Shown here piece after piece: positions 1-14,117 of a stretch of 64,000 nt of DNA. The notes beneath the pieces were generated by a model that was given only the letters and a program-made list of their open reading frames with translations, was not told the DNA's origin and ran no database searches. The stretch comes from Arenicola marina (taxonomy: Eukaryota > Annelida > Polychaeta > Arenicolidae). The translations under genes were made by a program, and so were the position numbers. Positions within the stretch are counted from its first letter, which is position 1. Every line of letters starts with the position of its first letter. Where the stretch lies: NCBI GenBank assembly GCA_964019135.1, contig OZ025250.1, positions 46,717,174 through 46,781,173 of the forward strand, in the 5' to 3' direction.

Positions 1-680
1 AAATAATGTAAGTTTTTGTAGTGTAAAATCACAAAGCTTCAGTTCATATGTTTTGTATCTCATTTATACATGAATTGTTCATAATATGTACCCTGGTAGT
101 TTACTCTTTTCAATGAAGTTATGAATCAATGTTATTTTATCTCATAGTAGATGAAATCTGCAGGATGTAGTTTGCTCTTTTAATTTCAGAGGAGTTTTAT
201 TGATCTCTTTAAGTTAGTATTAAGCCAATGACAATAAAATATGTATTCCCAATGGATTGATGCATTTGATCAGTGACAAGTGAATTTGTGAATAAGATTT
301 ATTTATGTGCATGTAATAACTGCATTACAATTGTTCAATTATTTTAATGGACCTCTTACAGACTAGGAGAAGTGTGCAGCCATGTGGCAGCCTTGCTCTT
401 TAAGATCGAGGCTGCAGTGCGGTTGAAAATCACGGAGAAGGCATGCACCAGCACACTTTGTGCTTGGAATGGGCAGTACAGAAAAAAGGTGATGTAAATA
501 ACAGAACAGTTATGTAACATCTTCACACGCTGATGGGGTTGCATACTGGACTAGCAGATTTCTATAATACATATATATATTTATTTATTTATTGTATACT
601 CAATAGCTTGATGAGATGTATCATTCATGTAAGACGCTGTGTCTATTTAGCCCTCATTTATAACCTCATAGGTTGAACCT
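1..680. other. AT-rich flank / probable 5' part of the transposon
   Basis: No convincing gene. The stretch is AT-rich with short simple runs (TATATAT and ATTT repeats near 565-595). It precedes the first ATG of the YqaJ gene, so it should hold that gene's promoter and the left end of the transposon. I looked for inverted similarity to the sequence beyond the transposase start (5430-6220) and found no terminal inverted repeat by eye, so the left boundary is undetermined. Confidence 0.4.
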
Positions 681-2466
681 ATGGAAGCATCTGGAATCCC
701 CTTCTCCCGGCCGATGAATCCGGCAGGAAAAATGAAGCGCCGGAAGGCAACCGCGTGTGAGGCTCTGCCGGAATTGTCAAAGGAAAAGGCAGCAGCTGCA
801 CTGGATCAGCTCAGAAACATCCTTCCCGATGCTTGCGTCCTTACAAGGCAGGATTCGGACACAGACACTGCATCGGAGGATGGATCATCTGCTGACTTTC
901 CACCGGTGGGAATACATATCACCCTTGAATATTAACAGACCGGCAATGCCATTTGAAGCTGTTCATATAGCAAATTTCGCCGGAGGAACAAAATCAATTT
1001 GTTCATGCAATGTCACCGGCGTATTTAGGTCATTATGCCATAAGCATATTGTGTATGTACATTAAGTAAAAGGGCATATTGATAAAGCAATGTTACAAAC
1101 TTTTAGAAACCCGGGGAAAATTTCGCGTGGGAAAGTGTGGTTGTCTTGTTCACCACGTCATTAAAAATCAGACCTTACTGGCATTTCTGCATTTTAATAC
1201 AAATGTAAATAGGCAAATACATGTACATACTAGTTTAAAAAGTTAAGCAAATTTTGAAGAAAAGAAATTGTTATAAATGAACAATGTATATCTGTTATAA
1301 AGTGTTTCATGATACCTTCTATGCAAATTAACAAATGCAATAATGCATACAAAGACGATTTTCCTTGCATATCAGTTTTTTCAGTGCATATCTTTATTCC
1401 ATGTGTTTTTTACAGAATGATATCGAGACACATGTATATATAGCAGTACATAGCTTTTAGAAACATGTACAATACTTAAAACACAACCGTTTTTTTCCAG
1501 ATACTGACCACTCTCTATCAGAGTGAGCTTGCTAATGCTTCTGACGTCAATATCGAGAAGACGGCTGGCGATATACAGTCATCGTTGCAAGTCACTCCCG
1601 ACCAGGTTGCGAGTTTAGAAGAGTCCACCAGAGGGCAAGCGTTAGCTCCTCTGTGGTGTGCACATCGCGCTGGCCGTATAACAGCTTCTCTTGCCCATAG
1701 AGTAAAGACACTTAAAGATGACACTGATCCTTCAAAGGTACTGAGCGGCATAATGCAGTACGATAACCCAGATTTAACAGATATACCTGCATGTCGATGG
1801 GGAAATTCTCACGAGGGAGAAGCTAGGGCGTCTTATGAGCTTTACTGCAAATCAATGCATGCGTCATTCTCATGCAGACTATCAGGTTTATTTGTCTCAC
1901 TAGAGCACCCATTCTTGGGGGCATCACCGGATGGGGTCACGCTGTGCTCCTGCCATGGTAGGGGTTTGCTTGAAATAAAGTGCCCCTACAAGTACCGCTA
2001 TTTGGCACCAGACGACCAACAGCTCAGAGCAGATGGAGGTTTTCTTACTTTGTCAGGTGAATTAAATAGAAAACATGGTTATTATACACAAATACAGCAT
2101 CAGCTCTTAGTATGCAGCTTATCTTGGTGCGACTTCGTAGTTTGGACAACTAAAGGATTTACAGTACAGCGAATCATGAGAGATCAAACATTCTGCTCTG
2201 AGTTGTTGGCCAAGCTGACGCAATTTATCATCCGTAAACTAATTCCAGAATTACTTACGAGAAGGTTATCCCTCACAGCAGATGCAAGAGAAACGGAACC
2301 CGATGACGACTCTCAGAAAACGTACTGTTCTTGCAAACGTCCAAGTTTTGGACGCATGATTAAATGTGAGAATGAGTCTTGCGATGTGCAGTGGTTCCAC
2401 TTCTCATGCATACAACTTAAACGTGCTCCACGAGGAAGCTGGTTTTGTCCAGTTTGCAAAGACTAG
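681..2466 (+). CDS. YqaJ-like PD-(D/E)XK nuclease with C-terminal PHD finger (ISL2EU second protein)
   Basis: Proposed exons are 681-905 and 1501-2466, giving about 396 aa. Exon 2 is secure: it follows a T-rich tract ending in CAG at 1500 and stays open to TAG. Exon 1 is less sure, but its donor (GTGGGA at 906) is phase 0 and joins exon 2 in frame. Residue numbers refer to the joined protein. The YqaJ/lambda-exonuclease fold shows as WGNSHEGEA (175-183), LGASPDG (214-220, metal-binding Asp), LLEIKCP (Glu and Lys of the E-x-K pair at 233/235) and a following QIQHQ motif. Residues 350-394 form a PHD finger with the order CxC, CxxxxC, WFHxxC, WFCPVC (C4HC3). The family degrades or processes DNA ends; the PHD finger should bind histone tails. 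Its likely role is to help transposition or target choice. The start could instead be the Met at 732. Confidence 0.8.
906..1500 (+). other. probable intron of the YqaJ gene
   Basis: AT-rich 595-bp interval beginning GTGGGA and ending in a long T tract plus CAG. An open frame at 757-1065 overlaps exon 1 in another frame and shows no recognisable domain. Confidence 0.5.
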
Positions 2467-3018
2467 AAGGTTAAATTCGAGCTTTATTTGGCGTTGTGCA
2501 AACATCGTTAAGGTCTGCATTGTATCCCATCACACAGCATGTGTAATCAAGCAACGGTATGTTAAGACCATATATGGCGCCCAGTTTATATAAGCCTACG
2601 ATGTACATGTATTGTCATTTGAGTTATCAACCATTTCTCGTGATAATATGCAATGCATTTTATAAATTGTTGACGATTATTATATAACGAGAAGACAAAA
2701 CAGGGTATATAGCTTTACTAGCGTTTCCATATTATATTAAGAACTCCATAAAACATGTTATCCTATGCGCAGTTCACATATGCTTATGTAATTTTATAAG
2801 TGCGTAGATTAAAATCTGCGCTATATCATCTATATTTAATTCAATCCTACGGTTTCAAAACTACCTGGGTCACGAAGCAGTTCTTAAAAGGACCAACCCC
2901 ATCGACATGCAGGTTCACTTTATCATGTTTATAGAATGCCGATTTATAGAATGTCGATCTCTTATAACGACAAACTATTTTACTCATATGGTAGACTATG
3001 CTACAACAAGATAGTATG
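2467..3018. other. intergenic 3' regions of the two convergent transposon genes
   Basis: AT-rich 552 bp between the two stop codons. No canonical AATAAA was found for either gene. An ATTAAA-type hexamer lies near 2810 on the plus strand and near 2840 on the minus strand, and either could serve. No other gene was seen. Confidence 0.5.
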
Positions 3019-5426
3019 CTACTTTCTTACCAACTTGGGTTGCAGATTTGTAATTGCACAGCATATTTTCACAATATTGTCTGCATAATGTACTAGTGAA
3101 AGCGGTAAGGTATTCTTTAAAATCTTATACTTCTTCAACCGCCCAATAGCTCGTTCAACGTGAATTCTTACAGAAGACAATTCTCTGGCCTTTGTTACTG
3201 TTTGACCTGGAAGTTGCTGCCGCCCCAGGGTAAATGCAGGTATCGCAAGTGTAGCTCCGAGCATTGCCAGTTCTTCCCCTATTGTGAATCCACGATCTGC
3301 CATAACTTGGTCACCAAACTCAATACGATCATAAAATCCAGATTTTTCGGTTATGACCTTGTCGGAAACCCTCCCTCCCCAACATTTTGAAACAAAGGAA
3401 ATAGCTCCATAAGGTGTTATTCCTATCAAGACCTTGAGGGTATGGTGGTGCTTATAATTTGACCAGGTTAAACTCCGTGCTTTCAGATTTTGAGGCCTTT
3501 CAAGAAAAATTTCGCTACAATCAATGATTACCCTGCAAGAACCAAATTTCCGTTTGAAAGCTTGTGGCAGATTCTTTCTTATAGTATCCACAGAAGGCCA
3601 CTGAACTAGAAATGACAATTTAGCGGCCATCACAGGAATTGTATTGCTCAGAACTCTTGTAACGTTTGACATGGATATTCCGAATCGTTGTGACAAGTCG
3701 CGATGACACAGATCAAGTCTAAGTTTCATAAGTGTCAACAGAATCTGGTCTGCTTTTGATATCGTATTGAAATGTTTTAGTGTACTTGTACAAAGAGTTA
3801 CTACCCACATGAAGGCGGCCAGGGACGGAATACCGGTAAAAAACCTTACATCGCTTTCCCTGAGATTGGATGCAGATATCTTGCAGGTCTTCAGGGTGTC
3901 TTTAAGTTGCCGGTTTTCTTGCTGGAGTTGTTGCAGTTCACTCAGAAGTTGTGCTTGTTGTCGCCTTAGCTGAGCGTTTTCAGCCAAGACAGGATCATCT
4001 GTGTTGGTACCTGAAAATATTTGTCACATATTTTCCCATATTATTATAAGTAAGGTTGTTGGGATATCGCATGGAAAGGGGAGTCGCATTACAAATGACC
4101 GCCTAACTTGTTTGTCATGTGATGCACCTAATGTATATATAGCATAGATCATATGAAATGAAAATAAATATCAATTGACTACATATGATGCATATATGTT
4201 TAAGTTGTCATTTTCTGTATATGACCGAAATGTACAGTTTCTCCAGTAGATGTAATACATTTTCTTTCTTTTTTACAATGAAAAGTTGATAGACTTTTTA
4301 CCATTCTTGTCCTAGTAATCTACTGCACAGATATATATTATCAGTACCTCTAACATATATTGTAGGCCAAATAGAGCAGGGACTATGGAGGAATGGAAAT
4401 CAACTAAAGCTTTGGTTTAAAACAACATTAATTTCCGGATAGGCTTATTCACCTTTTTCACAAAACTGGGGCTGCCAGTTGGATGTTTCTGGATCTGGGT
4501 CATCTGGACTTTCTTCAATTCTTTCCTTCTTGCAGACATCCTCCAGCTCACGCAACAATTTCCTCTTTACTGTTCTTGTGTGTCTTTCAATGCTTTTGCC
4601 AGCATTTGGGGTTGACTTGTATGTAAAAATGGTTGGGACATAATCTGGGTGGAGTGGGTCTTTGGATGGTCTTCCTGGAAAATGGTGCAGATCATTTCAT
4701 TTTAGATCTTTTGTTTTCTATCAATAACAAAGTATTCTCACTATTCACTTAATTCAAATTCAATTATAATTGTACTATATACACTATAACACATACAGGT
4801 CACCCTACATATATCTACATAATTTTTATTAAGTCAACATACAATTCATTTTTTACTTATAAATTTAACACCACTGCCGAGAAATTATTGATACGCTGTG
4901 TAACCTTCATTATGAAATTAACCTATACATTCTATGTGATTAGATCAATTAAATATAAAATATAAGATTAGGTAGTTTACATCAGCACAATCACTGAATC
5001 AGGGCTACACTGAAGTGTCACGTACCCCATGCATTCACAGTCCGTCAGATGCAGTGTGTGTGTAGGGGGGGGGGGGGCGTTCCCACAATAGCCCCATATG
5101 AAATATTTATTTTTGACGGTAAGCCTGTCAGTGTATATCATATGCTTGTGTTAGGGACTTAATATTCACGACGAAATTGAAATCATAGGAAACTTTTAGC
5201 TTATACACGTACAAACTTCAAGCTCACCTGACACAAAGTGCAGTCCGCAAACACGCTCTGTTCCTCTGGGCTCCCAAGCTTCCGCCGGGTTTTCAAAGTT
5301 GGATCGCTTGAGAGCTTTGATCCAGGCCAATCTGTGCCTCTTTTCTTCTGGTATGCGGAAAAAACCGATGTCACAGTCTTTCTCGTGCCTCTTTGTGCAT
5401 CCGACAGCTGCACAACTGGTTGGCAT
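3019..5426 (-). CDS. THAP-domain DDE transposase (HTH_Tnp_4 + DDE_Tnp_4), three exons
   Basis: Exons 5426-5228, 4674-4453 and 4010-3019 join into an uninterrupted 470-aa protein. Donors are GTGAGC and GTGAAT, acceptors end TTCCAG and TTTCAG, and both introns fall after codon position 1, each splitting a Gly codon. Residues 1-84 are a THAP zinc finger: Cys5, Cys10, Trp35, Cys60-x2-His63 and the closing YVPTIF box, which is completed only across the first splice. Residues 150-180 are Gln/Leu-rich and look like a coiled coil. A helix-turn-helix follows (about 225-270), then the catalytic RNase-H fold with Asp304 (IIDCSEIF), Asp379 (VMADRGF) and Glu426 (HVERAIGRLKKYKIL). THAP fingers in transposases bind the terminal repeats; the DDE triad cuts and joins DNA. 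The chosen start is the ATG right before the first THAP cysteine; a longer open frame upstream lacks family features. No disruption was seen. Confidence 0.88.
4454..4673 (-). CDS. transposase exon 2 (end of THAP domain and acidic linker)
   Basis: This short exon was missed by simple ORF finding. It begins with the last two bases of a Gly codon, continues RPSKDPLHPDYVPTIF (the conserved THAP C-terminal box), then a Lys/Arg-rich helix (RTVKRKLLRELEDVCKKER) and an acidic, Pro-rich linker, and ends one base into a codon before GTGAAT. Full extent is 4674-4453. Without it the THAP domain is incomplete, so its presence is the best evidence that the three exons form one gene. Confidence 0.85.
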
Positions 5427-5429
5427 GTT

Positions 5430-6228
5430 TATTTTAAAAGAATTGTTGTCAAAAACCAAATAACGCGAAAGTGTTCCGGTGCGAAGTACAGTGTCAACAA
5501 ACCAGCAGACGATCGACGTCCGCGGCAATGTTTTGCCTACCACGCAAACCACGTGCGCATTGTTAATGCATTGTGACGTCATCTGGTAAGGGTCTATCCC
5601 ACACGCTGTCTGTCCCGGTGTCCGCCCAGGCCACTGCTGCACGCTGTGAGAGGTGTCTCGATCTCTGGCGATCTGCTGGTGATTTCCTGGCTATGTAGCA
5701 GCCACTGAGGTTTCCTAGCTTTCTGCTTTCTCTGGTTGTGCTGGTGATTATGGCCAGACGAGGTTTGTCAGGAATCCCCGTTCACACCCCGGACCGCTAT
5801 ATATACTCTCCCGCCACCTGCGGCAACCACTGGAACTGAGAAATCTGCCGAGTCATTACCGATCATTGCAGTTTCCTTGTGAACGGCTGCTTCCAGGCGG
5901 TGGTGTGCCCCTGCCCCCGCCCCCCCTGCTACCATGGGGAACAGTCGAGAACCCGAAAAATGCCGACGTCGCGTCCTGAACGACGCTGGCATTTTCGCCA
6001 AGTCACAGTGACAAGGCGACACTCGTGACAGCAATCGTCGACGCATGACACAGGCGGGGGGAGACTCGGCGCTTAGCATGGGTTGAGCGTTGTGTGGTAA
6101 ATAAACAAATTGTATACTGACTACAATGCAAACGGGGTGGGAACTTGGCGCGAGAGGGTAGGAGGGCTGGGGCTAGCCCTTTTGCATGCCCCTCCCTGGC
6201 TTATCCGCTTTGGGGAGCGGGCCGGAGG
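5430..6228. other. upstream region of the transposase gene, GC-rich, no gene called
   Basis: This region should hold the transposase promoter, and the right end of the transposon may lie in it. GC content rises sharply after about 5600. A TGACGTCA element sits at 5574-5581. The open frames here (5768-6079 minus, 6145-6354 plus) are short, low in complexity and without recognisable domains. Confidence 0.4.
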
Positions 6229-6813
6229 GCCATGAAGCCAGTGTCGGTTGCGATTGTTGATTTAAAAATCAGCGCCCTTCGGCCGTCGATAGCAGAAAGT
6301 ACAGAAATAAACGGTCCTTATCAATTTGTCAAATTGTTCTTCATACCTTTATAGTTCCAAGGGCAATGAGATTGAACACAAACAAAATCCACCACTTTTT
6401 GTACTGGTGAAAGTTTTCAATAACACTTTTCAACAACTCTCCCCGCCGCCATGTCGCTGTTACGTCACAGTTCTCGTCAATCTCCCGGCAGAGGGCGTTA
6501 CGCTTACGCCATAGTCCTAGGAAAAATTGTGATGCGAGGAACGAGCTCCGTCTGCCGGGAGATCGACGAGAACTGTGACGTAACAGCGACATGGCGACGG
6601 GGAGAGTTGTTGAAAATTGTTGTTGAAAACTTTCACCAGTACAAAAAGTGGTGGATTTTGTTTGTTTTCAATCTCATTGCCCTTGGAACTATAAAGGTAT
6701 GAAGAACAACTTGACAAATTGATAAGGACCGTTTATTTCTGTACTTTCTGCAATCGACGGCCGAAGGGCGCTGATTTTTAAATCAACGCTCACAACCGAA
6801 ACTGGCTTCATGG
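6229..6813. mobile_element. foldback (long inverted repeat) element, nonautonomous
   Basis: Two arms of about 265 bp, 6229-6495 and 6551-6813, are near-perfect inverted copies around a spacer of about 55 bp. The outer ends read GCCATGAAGCCAGT and its reverse complement. The mirrored short open frames at 6326-6514 (+) and 6517-6717 (-), with almost the same peptide, show the symmetry. This is the form of a foldback MITE or long-TIR nonautonomous DNA transposon. Arm similarity is high, with only scattered substitutions, so it is young or is kept alike by gene conversion. No coding capacity and no clear target duplication. Confidence 0.8.
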
Positions 6814-6888
6814 CTCTCTCTCGTCTCCTTTAGGTGCGAGGTCAAGAGAGCCATGTGTCAAGGCTAGACTGGGGCTAGGTAAAGCTTA

Positions 6889-9800
6889 GGGGTGATGGGG
6901 GGTGAAGGGTTAGACGGAGGGGCGATGGGGGCTGGAGGGTTAGACGGAGGGGCGATGGGGGCTGGAGGGTCAGATGAAGGGGCGATGGGGGGTGGAGGGT
7001 CCGATGAAGGGGTGATGGGGGCTGGAGGGTCAGATGAAGGGGCGATTAGGGATGGAGGGTCAGATGAAGGGGTGATGGAGGCTGGAGGGTCAGATAAAGG
7101 GGCGATTAGGGATGGAGGGTCAGATGAAGGGGTGATGGAGGCTGGAGGGTCAGATAAAGGGGCGATTAGGGATTGAGGGTCAGATGAAGGGGTGATGGAG
7201 GCTGGAGGGTCAGATGAAGGGGTGATGGGGGCTGGAGGGTCAGATGAAGGGGTGATGGGGGCTGGAGGGTCAGATGAAGGGGTGATGGGGGCTGGAGGGT
7301 CAGATGAAGGGGCGATTAGGGATGGAGGGTCAGATGAAGGGGTGATGGAGGCTGGAGGGTCAGATAAAGGGGCGATTAGGGATGGAGGGTCAGATGAAGG
7401 GGTGATGGAGGCTGGAGGGTCAGATGAAGGGGTGATGGGGGCTGGAGGGTCAGATGAAGGGGCGATTAGGGATTGAGGGTCAGATGAAGGGGTGATGGAG
7501 GCTGGAGGGTCAGATGAAGGGGTGATGGGGGCTGGAGGGTCAGATGAAGGGGCGATTAGGGACGGAGGGTCAGATGAAGGGGTAATGGGGGCTGGGGGGG
7601 TCAGATGAAAAGGCGATGGGGGCTGGAGGGCCAGATGAAGGGGCGAGGGGGGTTGGAGGGCCCGATGAAGGGGTGATGGGGGCTAGAGGGCCACATGAAG
7701 GGGCGATTAGGGATGGAGGGTCAGATGAAGGGGTGATGGAGGCTGGAGGGTCAGATGAAGGGGTGATGGGGGCTGGAGGGTCAGATGAAGGGGCGATTAG
7801 GGACGGAGGGTCAGATGAAGGGGTAATGGGGGCTGGGGGGGTCAGATGAAGGGGTGATGGGGGCTGGAGGGTCAGATGAAGGGGTGATGGGGGCTGGAGG
7901 GTCAGATGAAGGGGTGATGGAGGCTGGAGGGCCAGATGAAGGGGTGATGGGGGCTGGAGGGTCAGATAAAGGGGTTATGGGGGCTGGAGAGTCAGATGAA
8001 GGGGTGATGGGGGCTGGAGGGTCAGATGAAGGGGTGATGGAGGCTGGAGGGCCAGATGAAGGGGCGATTAGAGATGGAGGGTCAGATGAAGGGGTGATGG
8101 AGGCTGGAGGGTCAGATGAAGGGGTGATGGGGGCTGGAGGGTCAGATGAAGGGGTGATGGAGGCTGGGGGCCAGATGAAGGGGTGATGGGGGCTGGCGGG
8201 TCAGATGAAGGGGTGATGGGGGCTGGAGGGTCAGATGAAGGGGTGATGGGGGTAGGAGGGTCAGATGAAGGGGCGATTAGGGATGGAGGGCCAGATGAAA
8301 GGGTGATGGAGGCTGGAGGGTCAGATGAAGGGGTGATGAGGGCTGGAGGGTCAGATGAAGGGGTGATGGGGCTGGAGGGCCAGATGAAGGGGTGATGGAG
8401 GCTGGAGGGCCAGATGAAGGGGCGATTAGGGATGGAGGGTCAGATGAAGGGGGGATGGAGGCTGGAGGGTCAGATGAAGGGGCGATGGGGGCTGGAGGGC
8501 CAGATGAAGGGGCGATGGGGGCTGGAGGGCCAGTTGAAGGGGTGATGGGGGCTGGAGGGCCAGATGAAAGGGGCGATGTGGGCTGGAGGGCCAGATGAAG
8601 GGGTGATGGAGGCTGGAGGGTCAGATGAAAGGGTGATGGGGGCTGGAGGGCCAGATGAAGGGGTGATGGGGGCTCGAGGGCCAGATGAAAGGGCGATGGG
8701 GGCTGGAGGGCCAGATGAAGGGGCGATGTGGGCTGGAGGGCCAGTTGAAGGGGTGATGGAGGCTGGAGGGTCAGATGAAGGGGTGATGGGGGCTCGAGGG
8801 CCAGATGAAGGGGCGATGGGGGCTGGAGGGTCAGATGAAGGGGTAATGGGGGCTGGAGGGTCAGATGAAGGGGTGATGGGGGCTGGAGGGTCAGATGAAG
8901 GGGTGATGGGGGCTGGAGGGTCAGATGAAGGGGTGATGGAGGCTGGGGGCCAGATGAAGGGGTGATGGGGGCTGGCGGGTCAGATGAAGGGGTGATGGGG
9001 GCTGGAGGGTCAGATGAAGGGGTGATGGGGGCTGGAGGGTCAGATGAAGGGGCGATTAGGGATGGAGGGTCAGATGAAGGGGTGATGAGGGCTGGAGGGT
9101 CAGATGAAGGGGTGATGGGGGCTGGAGGGTCAGATGAAGAGGCGATTAGGGATGGAGGGTCAGATGAAGGGGTGATGAGGGCTGGAGGGTCAGATGAAGG
9201 GGTGATGGGGCTGGAGGGCCAGATGAAGGGGTGATGGAGGCTGGAGGGCCAGATGAAGGGGCGATTAGGGATGGAGGGTCAGATGAAGGGGGGATGGAGG
9301 CTGGAGGGTCAGATGAAGGGGCGATGGGGGCTGGAGGGCCAGATGAAGGGGCGATGGGGGCTCGAGGGCCAGATGAAGGGGCGATGGGGGCTGGAGGGCC
9401 AGATGAAGGGGCGATGTGGGCTGGAGGGCCAGTTGAAGGGGTGATGGAGGCTGGAGGGTCAGATGAAGGGGTGATGGGGGCTGGAGGGTCAGATGAAGGG
9501 GTGATGGAGGCTGGAGGGCCAGATGAAGGGGTGATGGGGGCTGGAGGGTCAGATAAAGGGGTTATGGGGGCTGGAGGGTCAGATGAAGGGGTGATGGGGG
9601 CTGGAGGGTCAGACGAAGGGGTGATGGAGGCTGGAGGGCCAGATGAAGGGGCGATTAGGGATGGAGGGTCAGATGAAGGGGTGATGGAGGCTGGAGGGTC
9701 AGATGAAGGGGTGATGGGGGCTGGAGGGTCAGATGAAGGGGCGATTAGGGATGGAGGGTCAGATGAAGGGGTAATGGGGGCTGGAGGGTCAGATGAAGGG

Positions 9801-10884
9801 GTGATGGGGGCAGGAGGGTCAGATGAAGGGGTGATGGGGGCTGGAGGGTCAGATGAAGGGGTGATGGAGGCTGGGGGCCAGATGAAGGGGTGATGGGGGC
9901 TGGCGGGTCAGATGAAGGGGTGATGGGGGCTGGAGGGTCAGATGAAGGGGTGATGGAGGCTGGAGGGTCAGATGAAGGGGCGATTAGGGATGGAGGGTCA
10001 GATGAAGGGGTGATGGGGGCTGGAGGGTCAGATGAAGGGGTGATGGGGCTGGAGGGCCAGATGAAGGGGTGATGGAGGCTGGAGGGCCAGATGAAGGGGC
10101 GATTAGGGATGGAGGGTCAGATGAAGATGGGATGGAGGCTGGAGGGTCAGATGAAGGGGCGATGGGGGCTGGAGGGCCAGATGAAGGGGCGATGGGGGCT
10201 GGAGGGCCAGTTGAAGGGGTGATGGGGGCTGGAGGGCCAGATGAAAGGGGCGATGTGGGCTGGAGGGCCAGATGAAGGGGTGATGGAGGCTGGAGGGTCA
10301 GATGAAAGGGTGATGGGGGCTGGAGGGCCAGATGAAGGGGTGATGGGGGCTCGAGGGCCAGATGAAGGGGCGATGGGGGCTGGAGGGCCAGATGAAGGGG
10401 CGATGTGGGCTGGAGGGCCAGTTGAAGGGGTGATGGAGGCTGGAGGGTCAGATGAAGGGGTGATGGGGGCTGGAGGGCCAGATGAAGGGGTGATGGGGGC
10501 TGGAGGGCCAGATGAAGGGGCGATGGGGGCTGGAGGGCCAGATGAAGGGGCGATGTGGGCTGGAGGGCCAGATGAAGGGGCGATGTGGGCTGGAGGGTCA
10601 GATGAAGGGGTGATGGGGGCTGGAGGGCCAGATGAAGGGGCGATTAGGGCTGGAGGGCCAGTTGAAGGGGTGATGGGGGCTGGGGGGTCAGATGAAGGGG
10701 TGATGGGGGCTGGAGGGTCAGATGAAGGGGCGATGTGGGCTGGAGGGTCAGATGAAGGGGTGATGGGGGCTGGAGGGTCAGATGAAGGGGCGATGGGGGC
10801 TGGAGGGTCAGATGAAGGGGCGATAAGGGCTGGAGGGTCAGATGAAGGGGCGATTAGGGCTGGAGGGCCAGTTGAAGGAGTCCG
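6889..10884. repeat. 30-bp minisatellite, about 133 units, with higher-order repeats
   Basis: Unit of 30 bp, of the form GGAGGGTCAGATGAAGG followed by a GGTGATGGGGGCT-like half. Main variants are TCAGAT/CCAGAT, GGTGATGG/GGCGATTAGGGAT and GGGGGCT/GGAGGCT. The unit is ten codons without a stop, so open frames encoding G(S/P)DEGVMGAG decapeptides occur throughout; these are by-products. Runs of G make the plus strand a strong G-quadruplex candidate. A few units have single-base slips that reset the frame (near 7594, 7838, 8170, 8369). Confidence 0.95.
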
Positions 10885-11647: not shown

Positions 11648-11728
<81 letters not shown>

Positions 11729-12410
11729 AAGGGCAGGTTGATGGTTACTCAAGGCTGGGGGTGGGCGGTGGGCGGTGGGCGGTGAGGGGCAGGTTGATGG
11801 TTACTCAAGGCTGGGGGTGGGCGGTGGGCGGTGAAGGGCAGGTTGATGGTTACTCAAGGCTGGGGGTGGGCGGTGGGCGGTGAAGGGCAGGTTGATGGTT
11901 ACTCAAGGCTGGGGGTGGGCGGTGGGCGGTGAAGGGCAGGTTGATGGTTACTCAAGGCTGGGGGTGGGCGGTGGGCGGTGAAGGGCAGGTTGATGGTTAC
12001 TCAAGGCTGGGGGTGGGCGGTGGGCGGTGAAGGGCAGGTTGATGGTTACTCAAGGCTGGGGGTGGGCGGTGGGCGGTGGGCGGTGAGGGGCAGGTTGATG
12101 GTTACTCAAGGCTGGGGGTGGGCGGTGGGCGGTGAAGGGCAGGTTGATGGTTACTCAAGGCTGGGGGTGGGCGGTGGGCGGTGAAGGGCAGGTTGATGGT
12201 TACTCAAGGCTGGGGGTGGGCGGTGGGCGGTGAAGGGCAGGTTGATGGTTACTCAAGGCTGGGGGTGGGCGGTGGGCGGTGAAGGGCAGGTTGATGGTTA
12301 CTCAAGGCTGGGGGTGGGCGGTGGGCGGTGAAGGGCAGGTTGATGGTTACTCAAGGCTGGGGGTGGGCGGTGGGCGGTGAAGGGCAGGTTGATGGTTACT
12401 CAAGGCTGGG

Positions 12411-12477
<67 letters not shown>

Positions 12478-12802
12478 AAGGGCAGGTTGATGGTTACTCA
12501 AGGCTGGGGGTGGGCGGTGGGCGGTGAAGGGCAGGTTGATGGTTACTCAAGGCTGGGGGTGGGCGGTGGGCGGTGAAGGGCAGGTTGATGGTTACTCAAG
12601 GCTGGGGGTGGGCGGTGGGCGGTGAAGGGCAGGTTGATGGTTACTCAAGGCTGGGGGTGGGCGGTGGGCGGTGAAGGGCAGGTTGATGGTTACTCAAGGC
12701 TGGGGGTGGGCGGTGGGCGGTGAAGGGCAGGTTGATGGTTACTCAAGGCTGGGGGTGGGCGGTGGGCGGTGAAGGGCAGGTTGATGGTTACTCAAGGCTG
12801 GG

Positions 12803-12890
<88 letters not shown>

Positions 12891-13068
12891 AAGGGCAGGT
12901 TGATGGTTACTCAAGGCTGGGGGTGGGCGGTGGGCGGTGAAGGGCAGGTTGATGGTTACTCAAGGCTGGGGGTGGGCGGTGGGCGGTGAAGGGCAGGTTG
13001 ATGGTTACTCAAGGCTGGGGGTGGGCGGTGGGCGGTGAAGGGCAGGTTGATGGTTACTCAAGGCTGGG

Positions 13069-13142
<74 letters not shown>

Positions 13143-13284
13143 GCGGTGGGCGGTGAAGGGCAGGTTGATGGTTACTCAAGGCTGGGGGTGGGCGGTGGGC
13201 GGTGAAGGGCAGGTTGATGGTTACTCAAGGCTGGGGGTGGGCGGTGGGCGGTGAAGGGCAGGTTGATGGTTACTCAAGGCTGGG

Positions 13285-13365
<81 letters not shown>

Positions 13366-13870
13366 AAGGGCAGGTTGATGGTTACTCAAGGCTGGGGGTG
13401 GGCGGTGGGCGGTGAAGGGCAGGTTGATGGTTACTCAAGGCTGGGGGTGGGCGGTGGGCGGTGAAGGGCAGGTTGATGGTTACTCAAGGCTGGGGGTGGG
13501 CGGTGGGCGGTGAAGGGCAGGTTGATGGTTACTCAAGGCTGGGGGTGGGCGGTGGGCGGTGAAGGGCAGGTTGATGGTTACTCAAGGCTGGGGGTGGGCG
13601 GTGGGCGGTGAAGGGCAGGTTGATGGTTACTCAAGGCTGGGGGTGGGCGGTGGGCGGTGAAGGGCAGGTTGATGGTTACTCAAGGCTGGGGGTGGGCGGT
13701 GGGCGGTGAAGGGCAGGTTGATGGTTACTCAAGGCTGGGGGTGGGCGGTGGGCGGTGAAGGGCAGGTTGATGGTTACTCAAGGCTGGGGGTGGGCGGTGG
13801 GCGGTGAAGGGCAGGTTGATGGTTACTCAAGGCTGGGGGTGGGCGGTGGGCGGTGAAGGGCAGGTTGATG
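11635..13870. repeat. 49-bp minisatellite with nested 7-bp GGTGGGC expansion
   Basis: The basic unit is 49 bp: CTCAAGGCTGGGG, two or three copies of GGTGGGC, then GAAGGGCAGGTTGATGGTTA. About 35 units occur. In several, the internal heptamer expands to roughly 8-12 copies (near 11650, 12420, 12815, 13080, 13295). The basic unit length is 7 x 7. The plus strand is rich in G triplets. No genes; the open frames here are repeat by-products. Confidence 0.95.
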
Positions 13871-14117
13871 GTTTGTATATTCAGGACGCTTTAACCACTT
13901 TTGGTCATATCGCGTCAATATGGGAGAAGGAAGGCAGAGTGGAGCCCTGTCCCCGGGGTAACTCCCTACTCTTTGCGAGGAAGGACATGGGATCTTTATC
14001 CTGCGACCACACATAGCCGCAGCGGGGCTCGAACCACCGATCCACGTGGATATAGGCTTTCAGGTGGCCAGAGCACTCAATGCGAGCGCTCGAACCCACT
14101 GAACTATCGGGCCGGCC
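13871..14117 (-). repeat. tRNA-derived SINE, near full length
   Basis: Read on the minus strand, it opens with a tRNA-like head: A box TAGTTCAGTGGG near 14108 and B box GGTTCGAGCCCC near 14030. The body holds the motif TGTGGTCGCAGGATAAAGA and it ends GGTTAAAGCGTCCTGAATA. Three other copies or fragments (14763-14820, 15447-15600, 61747-62000) share parts of it. A and B boxes are RNA polymerase III promoter elements. It sits directly against the end of the 49-bp array. Confidence 0.8.

Follow-up and report, generated by a model that had tools for sequence, protein, structure and literature searches.

The question raised by this locus is whether two convergent genes near the left edge of the analysed DNA form a transposon that has recently moved, and what the second gene contributes to it. 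The analysed stretch, called the window, comprises 64,000 nucleotides of the Arenicola marina genome (contig OZ025250.1, positions 46,717,174–46,781,173 of the forward strand). Judged at conserved positions, the COX1 gene of the host translates well when ATA is Met, AGA is Ser and TGA is Trp (genetic code table 5), evidence against an echinoderm. The original prediction described, at 681–5426, an apparently intact ISL2EU-type element with a spliced transposase gene and a YqaJ nuclease gene. We consider it likely that the locus is a cut-and-paste transposon of the ISL2EU group (PHIS superfamily), autonomous, young and present in few copies, which works by the mechanism proposed below. Judged by its gene content, it is a new ISL2EU family in which the YqaJ protein bears a PHD finger of the ING type, and this finger suggests a chromatin-reading cofactor resembling RAG2.

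The 867-Mb genome was searched at the DNA level with positions 640–5700 of the window as the query. In the genome searches only the best candidates were scored, so that copy counts are lower bounds. At least six full-length copies were present (the window copy, C12, C6a, C6b, C6c and C7), and the main BLAST pieces of the full-length copies were 98.3–99.6% identical to the window copy. The stretch common to the copies continued past window base 1, and the region to the left of the window edge was therefore read too. With label 0 assigned to the base preceding window base 1, the ends common to the six copies delimit an element of 7026 bp in the window copy, from label −1428 (L009:1572) to 5597. 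The whole element occupies L009:1572–8597; the part inside the window is 1–5597, and the left 1429 bases, including the left terminal inverted repeat (TIR), precede window base 1. The predicted limits fell short of this repeated unit and missed its left end, which lies in the roughly 1.4 kb beyond the window. The claim of completeness holds for the genome but not for the stretch between 681 and 5426. The copy search returned near-identical full-length copies with defined ends, and neither single-copy synteny nor an absence of ends was observed.

The TIRs are 12 bp long with one mismatch, the left end reading AT-AGACCCTTATCA (TIR at L009:1574–1585) and the right end, read inverted, AT-AGACCCTTACCA (TIR at 5584–5595, minus strand). 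The AT at 5596–5597 is interpreted as the right-hand copy of the duplicated target, with AT at both ends of the element and a single AT in the empty sites of C6b and C6c. The terminal dinucleotide deviates in C6c (AA at the left end) and in C7 (AA at the right end, read inverted). Further inside lies a 12-base subterminal word, TGGTAGGCAAAA (5531–5542, minus strand), with an inverted copy near the left end; the two copies are 55 and 53 bases inside the outer ends of the two TIRs. A shared word of at least 12 bases arose in 4 of 2000 mononucleotide shuffles, and TGGTAGGCAAAA is a candidate binding site of the transposase.

Empty sites were searched in the genome with the flank, one AT and the other flank joined, for the six copies, and the best 40 of 5582 candidates were scored. 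Among those scored, matches spanning the joined junction numbered 15 for C6b, 15 for C7 and 10 for C6c. Aligned base by base, L064 and L067 corresponded to the C6b empty site, and L065, L066 and L069 to that of C6c, in each case gap-free and with exactly one AT. Because the empty sites hold one AT, the C6b and C6c insertions duplicated AT (2 bp). This reading covers two loci for C6b and three for C6c, the fourth C6c locus (L068, in the other orientation) and the C7 matches being left out. The window copy presumably duplicated AT as well, given the AT at both its ends.

The transposase gene agreed with the prediction. Its three minus-strand exons, at 5228–5426 (THAP), 4453–4674 and 3019–4010 (a coiled-coil-like stretch, HTH_Tnp_4, DDE_Tnp_4 and the stop codon), join in phase into a protein of 470 aa with GT/AG at both introns. 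Pfam recognised THAP (8.6e-13), HTH_Tnp_4 (6.2e-14) and DDE_Tnp_4 (2.6e-49, over 158 of 158 positions). Among solved structures, exon 3 had no match at E 0.1.

The convergent plus-strand gene had been only partly described. YqaJ does lie in the open reading frame (ORF) at 1480–2466 (Pfam E 1.9e-19), but the proposed start at 681 is wrong, and the gene, whose 5' half had been missed, has four exons. Exon 1 is outside the window (labels −1296 to −878, L009:1704–2122), followed by exon 2 at 362–488, exon 3 at 672–905, a linker, and exon 4 at 1501–2466, which encodes the YqaJ domain and a C-terminal PHD finger and includes the stop codon. Together they give 581 aa in phase. The model is backed by homologous coding stretches in two related families, L035 and L036, and for exon 4 by domain searches. 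Exons 1 and 2 form a SWIM-like CxC...CxH motif, CTCMAGLGEVCSH, its second half encoded by exon 2; the motif is kept in L035 and L036, and we take CxC...CxH to be the SWIM zinc-finger motif. The YqaJ domain aligns with the lambda/YqaJ-type exonuclease 3syy, a weak similarity (E 1.4e-4) in which the D, ExK and Q positions, presumably catalytic, are common to both; unlike 3syy, the window nuclease has additional SWIM-like and PHD parts. In comparisons of the window family with L035 and L036, the proportion of nonsynonymous differences (pN) was well below that of synonymous differences (pS, mostly saturated) for the SWIM part, YqaJ and the PHD finger. Within the YqaJ coding exon, a word of 18 bases (1785–1802) has a perfect inverted copy between the two genes (2897–2914). 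Four of the seven copies have both arms exact and three have one exact arm; elsewhere the genome lacks the word, and L035 has no inverted pair of this kind.

The transposase domains, the YqaJ gene and the AT duplication, seen in two sister copies, place the element in ISL2EU, and with the convergent gene order and the TIRs they bear out the predicted type. In the sections of Han et al. 2015 consulted (PMC4482050), PHIS transposases are DDE-domain enzymes with a preference for AT-rich targets, and ISL2EU elements have TIRs of 6–259 bp usually starting with GG and a conserved preference for A|AT|T. The window element is like the ISL2EU elements described there in its THAP/HTH/DDE transposase, its second gene with YqaJ, its AT duplication, its short TIRs and its animal host. 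It differs in its TIR, which starts with AG, in its size (7.0 kb, where ISL2EU elements average about 4.8 kb) and in lacking A|AT|T, with the left A in one of the six copies and the right T in two. As Han et al. give a conserved preference, A|AT|T is treated here as usual and not as defining for ISL2EU.

The stretch at 2299–2463 (plus strand) encodes the PHD finger. Of the domains that the prediction listed for a Pfam search, Pfam found THAP, HTH_Tnp_4, DDE_Tnp_4 and YqaJ, whereas its general PHD model stayed below the cut-off and the finger was found by phmmer instead, and by a search of the worm's own genome. The last 50 or so residues of the nuclease protein are similar to the ING-family fingers of the Protein Data Bank (PDB), the best matches being 9m4r (PHD finger protein ING1, 3.4e-18), 2qic (Inhibitor of growth protein 1, 9e-18) and 2g6q (Inhibitor of growth protein 2, 1.8e-17). 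Of 31 PDB matches, the top 20 are ING-family chains, yeast YNG1, YNG2 and PHO23 included. Aligned with the ING chains and mapped by count, the finger retains the trimethyl-lysine cage residues tyrosine, methionine and tryptophan, and a glutamate replaces the ING aspartate that follows a zinc cysteine near the cage. The cage positions are in part assumed, the tyrosine of ING2 being taken as Y215. M226 and W238 of ING2 are named as cage residues in the part of PMC4225485 consulted, where the tyrosine is printed as Y315. The finger is 48–51% identical to three PDB ING chains and 44% identical to L058, the one stretch resembling a host ING gene. It is similar to that of ING proteins, but is fused to a transposon nuclease and not to the ING N-terminus. 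A genome search with the finger gave 62 matches, some of the weaker ones being ordinary PHD genes. Since pN is below pS (0.38 against 0.91 for L035, 0.43 against 0.83 for L036, with pS saturated), the finger seems to have been retained by selection like the rest of the protein. A tree of about 50 PHD residues had weak support and fits one capture or several. From its cage residues the finger is predicted to bind histone H3 trimethylated at lysine 4 (H3K4me3).

The association of the two genes extends across the genome. We compared 81 YqaJ hits with 97 of the 122 transposase hits and 55 of the 58 SWIM-exon hits; the counts are of loci, not of independent families, many hits being mutual copies. 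A convergent transposase lay within 4 kb of 53 YqaJ hits, and none had a transposase solely on another side. A finger match was present within 1.2 kb downstream of 28, of which 26 also had the convergent transposase, and a SWIM-exon match within 4 kb upstream of 32; finger, transposase and SWIM exon occurred together at 24. In transposase exon 3, L035 is 55% and L036 40% identical to the window family. Like those of the window family, the L036 coding stretches are broken at nuclease residues 140/141 and at transposase residue 67, and they have one additional break at 62; the intron at 140/141 is absent from L035. L036 (G000:C7:14089981–14098281) has the same gene layout and identical TIRs of 14 bp, GGTGAAAACAAACG. 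The ends of L035 were not definable, its right side continuing into an abundant repeat. On C19 (G000:C19:6165965–6273934; L060–L062), five L035-type YqaJ-PHD gene fragments are spaced by about 22–37 kb and are probably a segmental tandem array.

The copies also bear on the age of the element. Relative to the window copy, the full-length copies carry 0.25–0.74% substitutions in the exons and 0.31–0.99% elsewhere, and C12 differs by only 20 substitutions in 7018 aligned bases. The window copy and C12 have both genes open with canonical splice dinucleotides. C7 retains an open nuclease gene and has a frameshift in its joined transposase; in C6a, C6b and C6c both genes are broken. C6a and C6b have three stops in common (two in the nuclease gene, one in the transposase) that are absent from the other five copies, and their 1-kb flanks are unrelated. 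Probably an already broken element was moved in trans by the proteins of another copy. Recent mobility, as originally claimed, is supported by the near-identity of C12 and by this doubly broken copy at two unrelated sites. A truncated copy, C3b, lacks the left end and labels −935 to 28 and has the transposase alone open. Fragments were also seen: a right end (C1), a 92% identical piece of the left half (C78 and C450) and a piece of 0.4 kb (C18). There were besides four weak DNA matches of 50–76 bases at 76–84% and a fifth, about 255 bases long, at 67%. At 5056, beside a poly-G run, about 70–80 bases are absent from the window copy; they are present in the other full-length copies except C12, and in the C1 fragment. 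A genome-wide search with the end-motif pattern revealed no swarm of short non-autonomous derivatives: 13 of its 22 matches were at known copy ends, and the remaining 9 compare with 10 for a reversed control pattern. The pattern search for relatives in viral contigs matched nothing.

We propose the following mechanism. The THAP/HTH/DDE transposase would bind the terminal and subterminal repeats, excise the element and join it at AT, and copies with open genes could move broken ones. The SWIM-YqaJ-PHD protein would be a lambda-exonuclease-like cofactor with DNA ends as its substrate. The donor break is a plausible place of action, where it could for example resect the donor gap so that template repair restores the copy. 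The ING-type finger would dock this nuclease on H3K4-methylated chromatin. The role of docking may lie in timing or access and not in the choice of site, and strict promoter targeting is disfavoured because three of the six full-length copies lie in repeats.

Several observations weigh against this interpretation. The best 40 of the 5582 empty-site candidates included none for the window copy, nor any for the flanks of C12 and C6a. The stops shared by C6a and C6b could have come from gene conversion. The Pfam SWIM model was not matched at E 0.1, for which reason the motif is called SWIM-like here. In L036 the TIRs start with GG and, in the one copy read, no AT flanks them, so that its target duplication may differ from that of the window family. 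The finger fell short of the general PHD model, several related fingers among 27 stretches read are decayed or lack cage residues, and it is interspersed repeats that host half of the six full-length copies. The last two of these points also fit a reading that we consider quite possible, in which the element is of ISL2EU type and its finger no longer reads H3K4me3, being a zinc-bound structural or protein-interaction module on a nuclease without chromatin choice. The glutamate in place of the ING aspartate, the fingers of other families that are truncated or lack the tyrosine or tryptophan, and the insertions in repeats all agree with it, but the window finger keeps the cage tyrosine, methionine and tryptophan and has ING proteins as its best matches. 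It is also conceivable that the YqaJ gene is a passenger that does not help the element to move. The role of additional ORFs is called unknown in the consulted part of PMC4482050, and 28 of the 81 YqaJ hits lack a nearby transposase; we find this reading unlikely, as the convergent pair is kept at 53 hits (many of them mutual copies) and pN is well below pS in the domains of the YqaJ protein.

Domestication of the gene pair for the host, with the other copies as dead relics, appears very improbable. The window copy has both genes open, and the exons diverge less than the remainder in all 15 copy pairs compared, as selection on the proteins would give; yet the six copies have defined ends and near-identical introns and ends, C12 is equally open, and the flanks differ among copies. 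A selection test against the 92% identical fragment C78 gave about equal divergence in exons and introns and favoured neither side. A single-copy domesticated pair is ruled out by the six full-length copies with common ends and by the empty sites.

By analogy, the nearest functional parallel to the proposed chromatin-tied transposon is RAG1/RAG2. According to the sections of PMC8355894 and PMC9885083 consulted, RAG-type transposons likewise pair convergent genes, one for a DDE transposase and the other for a protein that bears a PHD finger. The transposase is unrelated, RAG2 has a beta-propeller where the window protein has the YqaJ nuclease, and RAGL duplications are of 5 bp against 2 bp in the window family. 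H3K4 binding is demonstrated for RAG2 and predicted for the window finger, and amphioxus ProtoRAG lacks the PHD (same sources). Tentatively, then, an ISL2EU lineage with a SWIM-YqaJ nuclease may have become tied to open chromatin by an ING-derived, H3K4me3-reading finger that arose separately from RAG1/RAG2 and in parallel to it, a possibility we hold with some doubt. Neither PHD nor SWIM is mentioned in the main text of PMC4482050, and PHD as a protein domain is absent from the part of PMC9179366 consulted. An ING-type PHD on ISL2EU was not found in the literature searched, the scope of which excluded Repbase reports, supplements and most subscription journals. If the prediction is true, the RAG type would be joined by a further two-gene DNA transposon with a second protein that reads methylated H3K4. 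The predicted histone-reading module makes the role of the YqaJ protein testable, be it in target choice, in guidance of donor repair or in restriction to open chromatin, and suggests a testable link between a jumping gene and open chromatin. With two near-identical open copies and a broken copy at two unrelated sites, the family is a reasonable one for a transposition assay.

To the right of the element, the window contains further repeats. Closest to it, a long inverted repeat at 6225–6818 has two arms of 271 nt, 95% complementary and 52 nt apart. It is followed by two minisatellites, one at 6888–10,878 with a 30-bp unit in about 133 copies and one at 11,706–13,873 with a 49-bp unit in about 43 copies.

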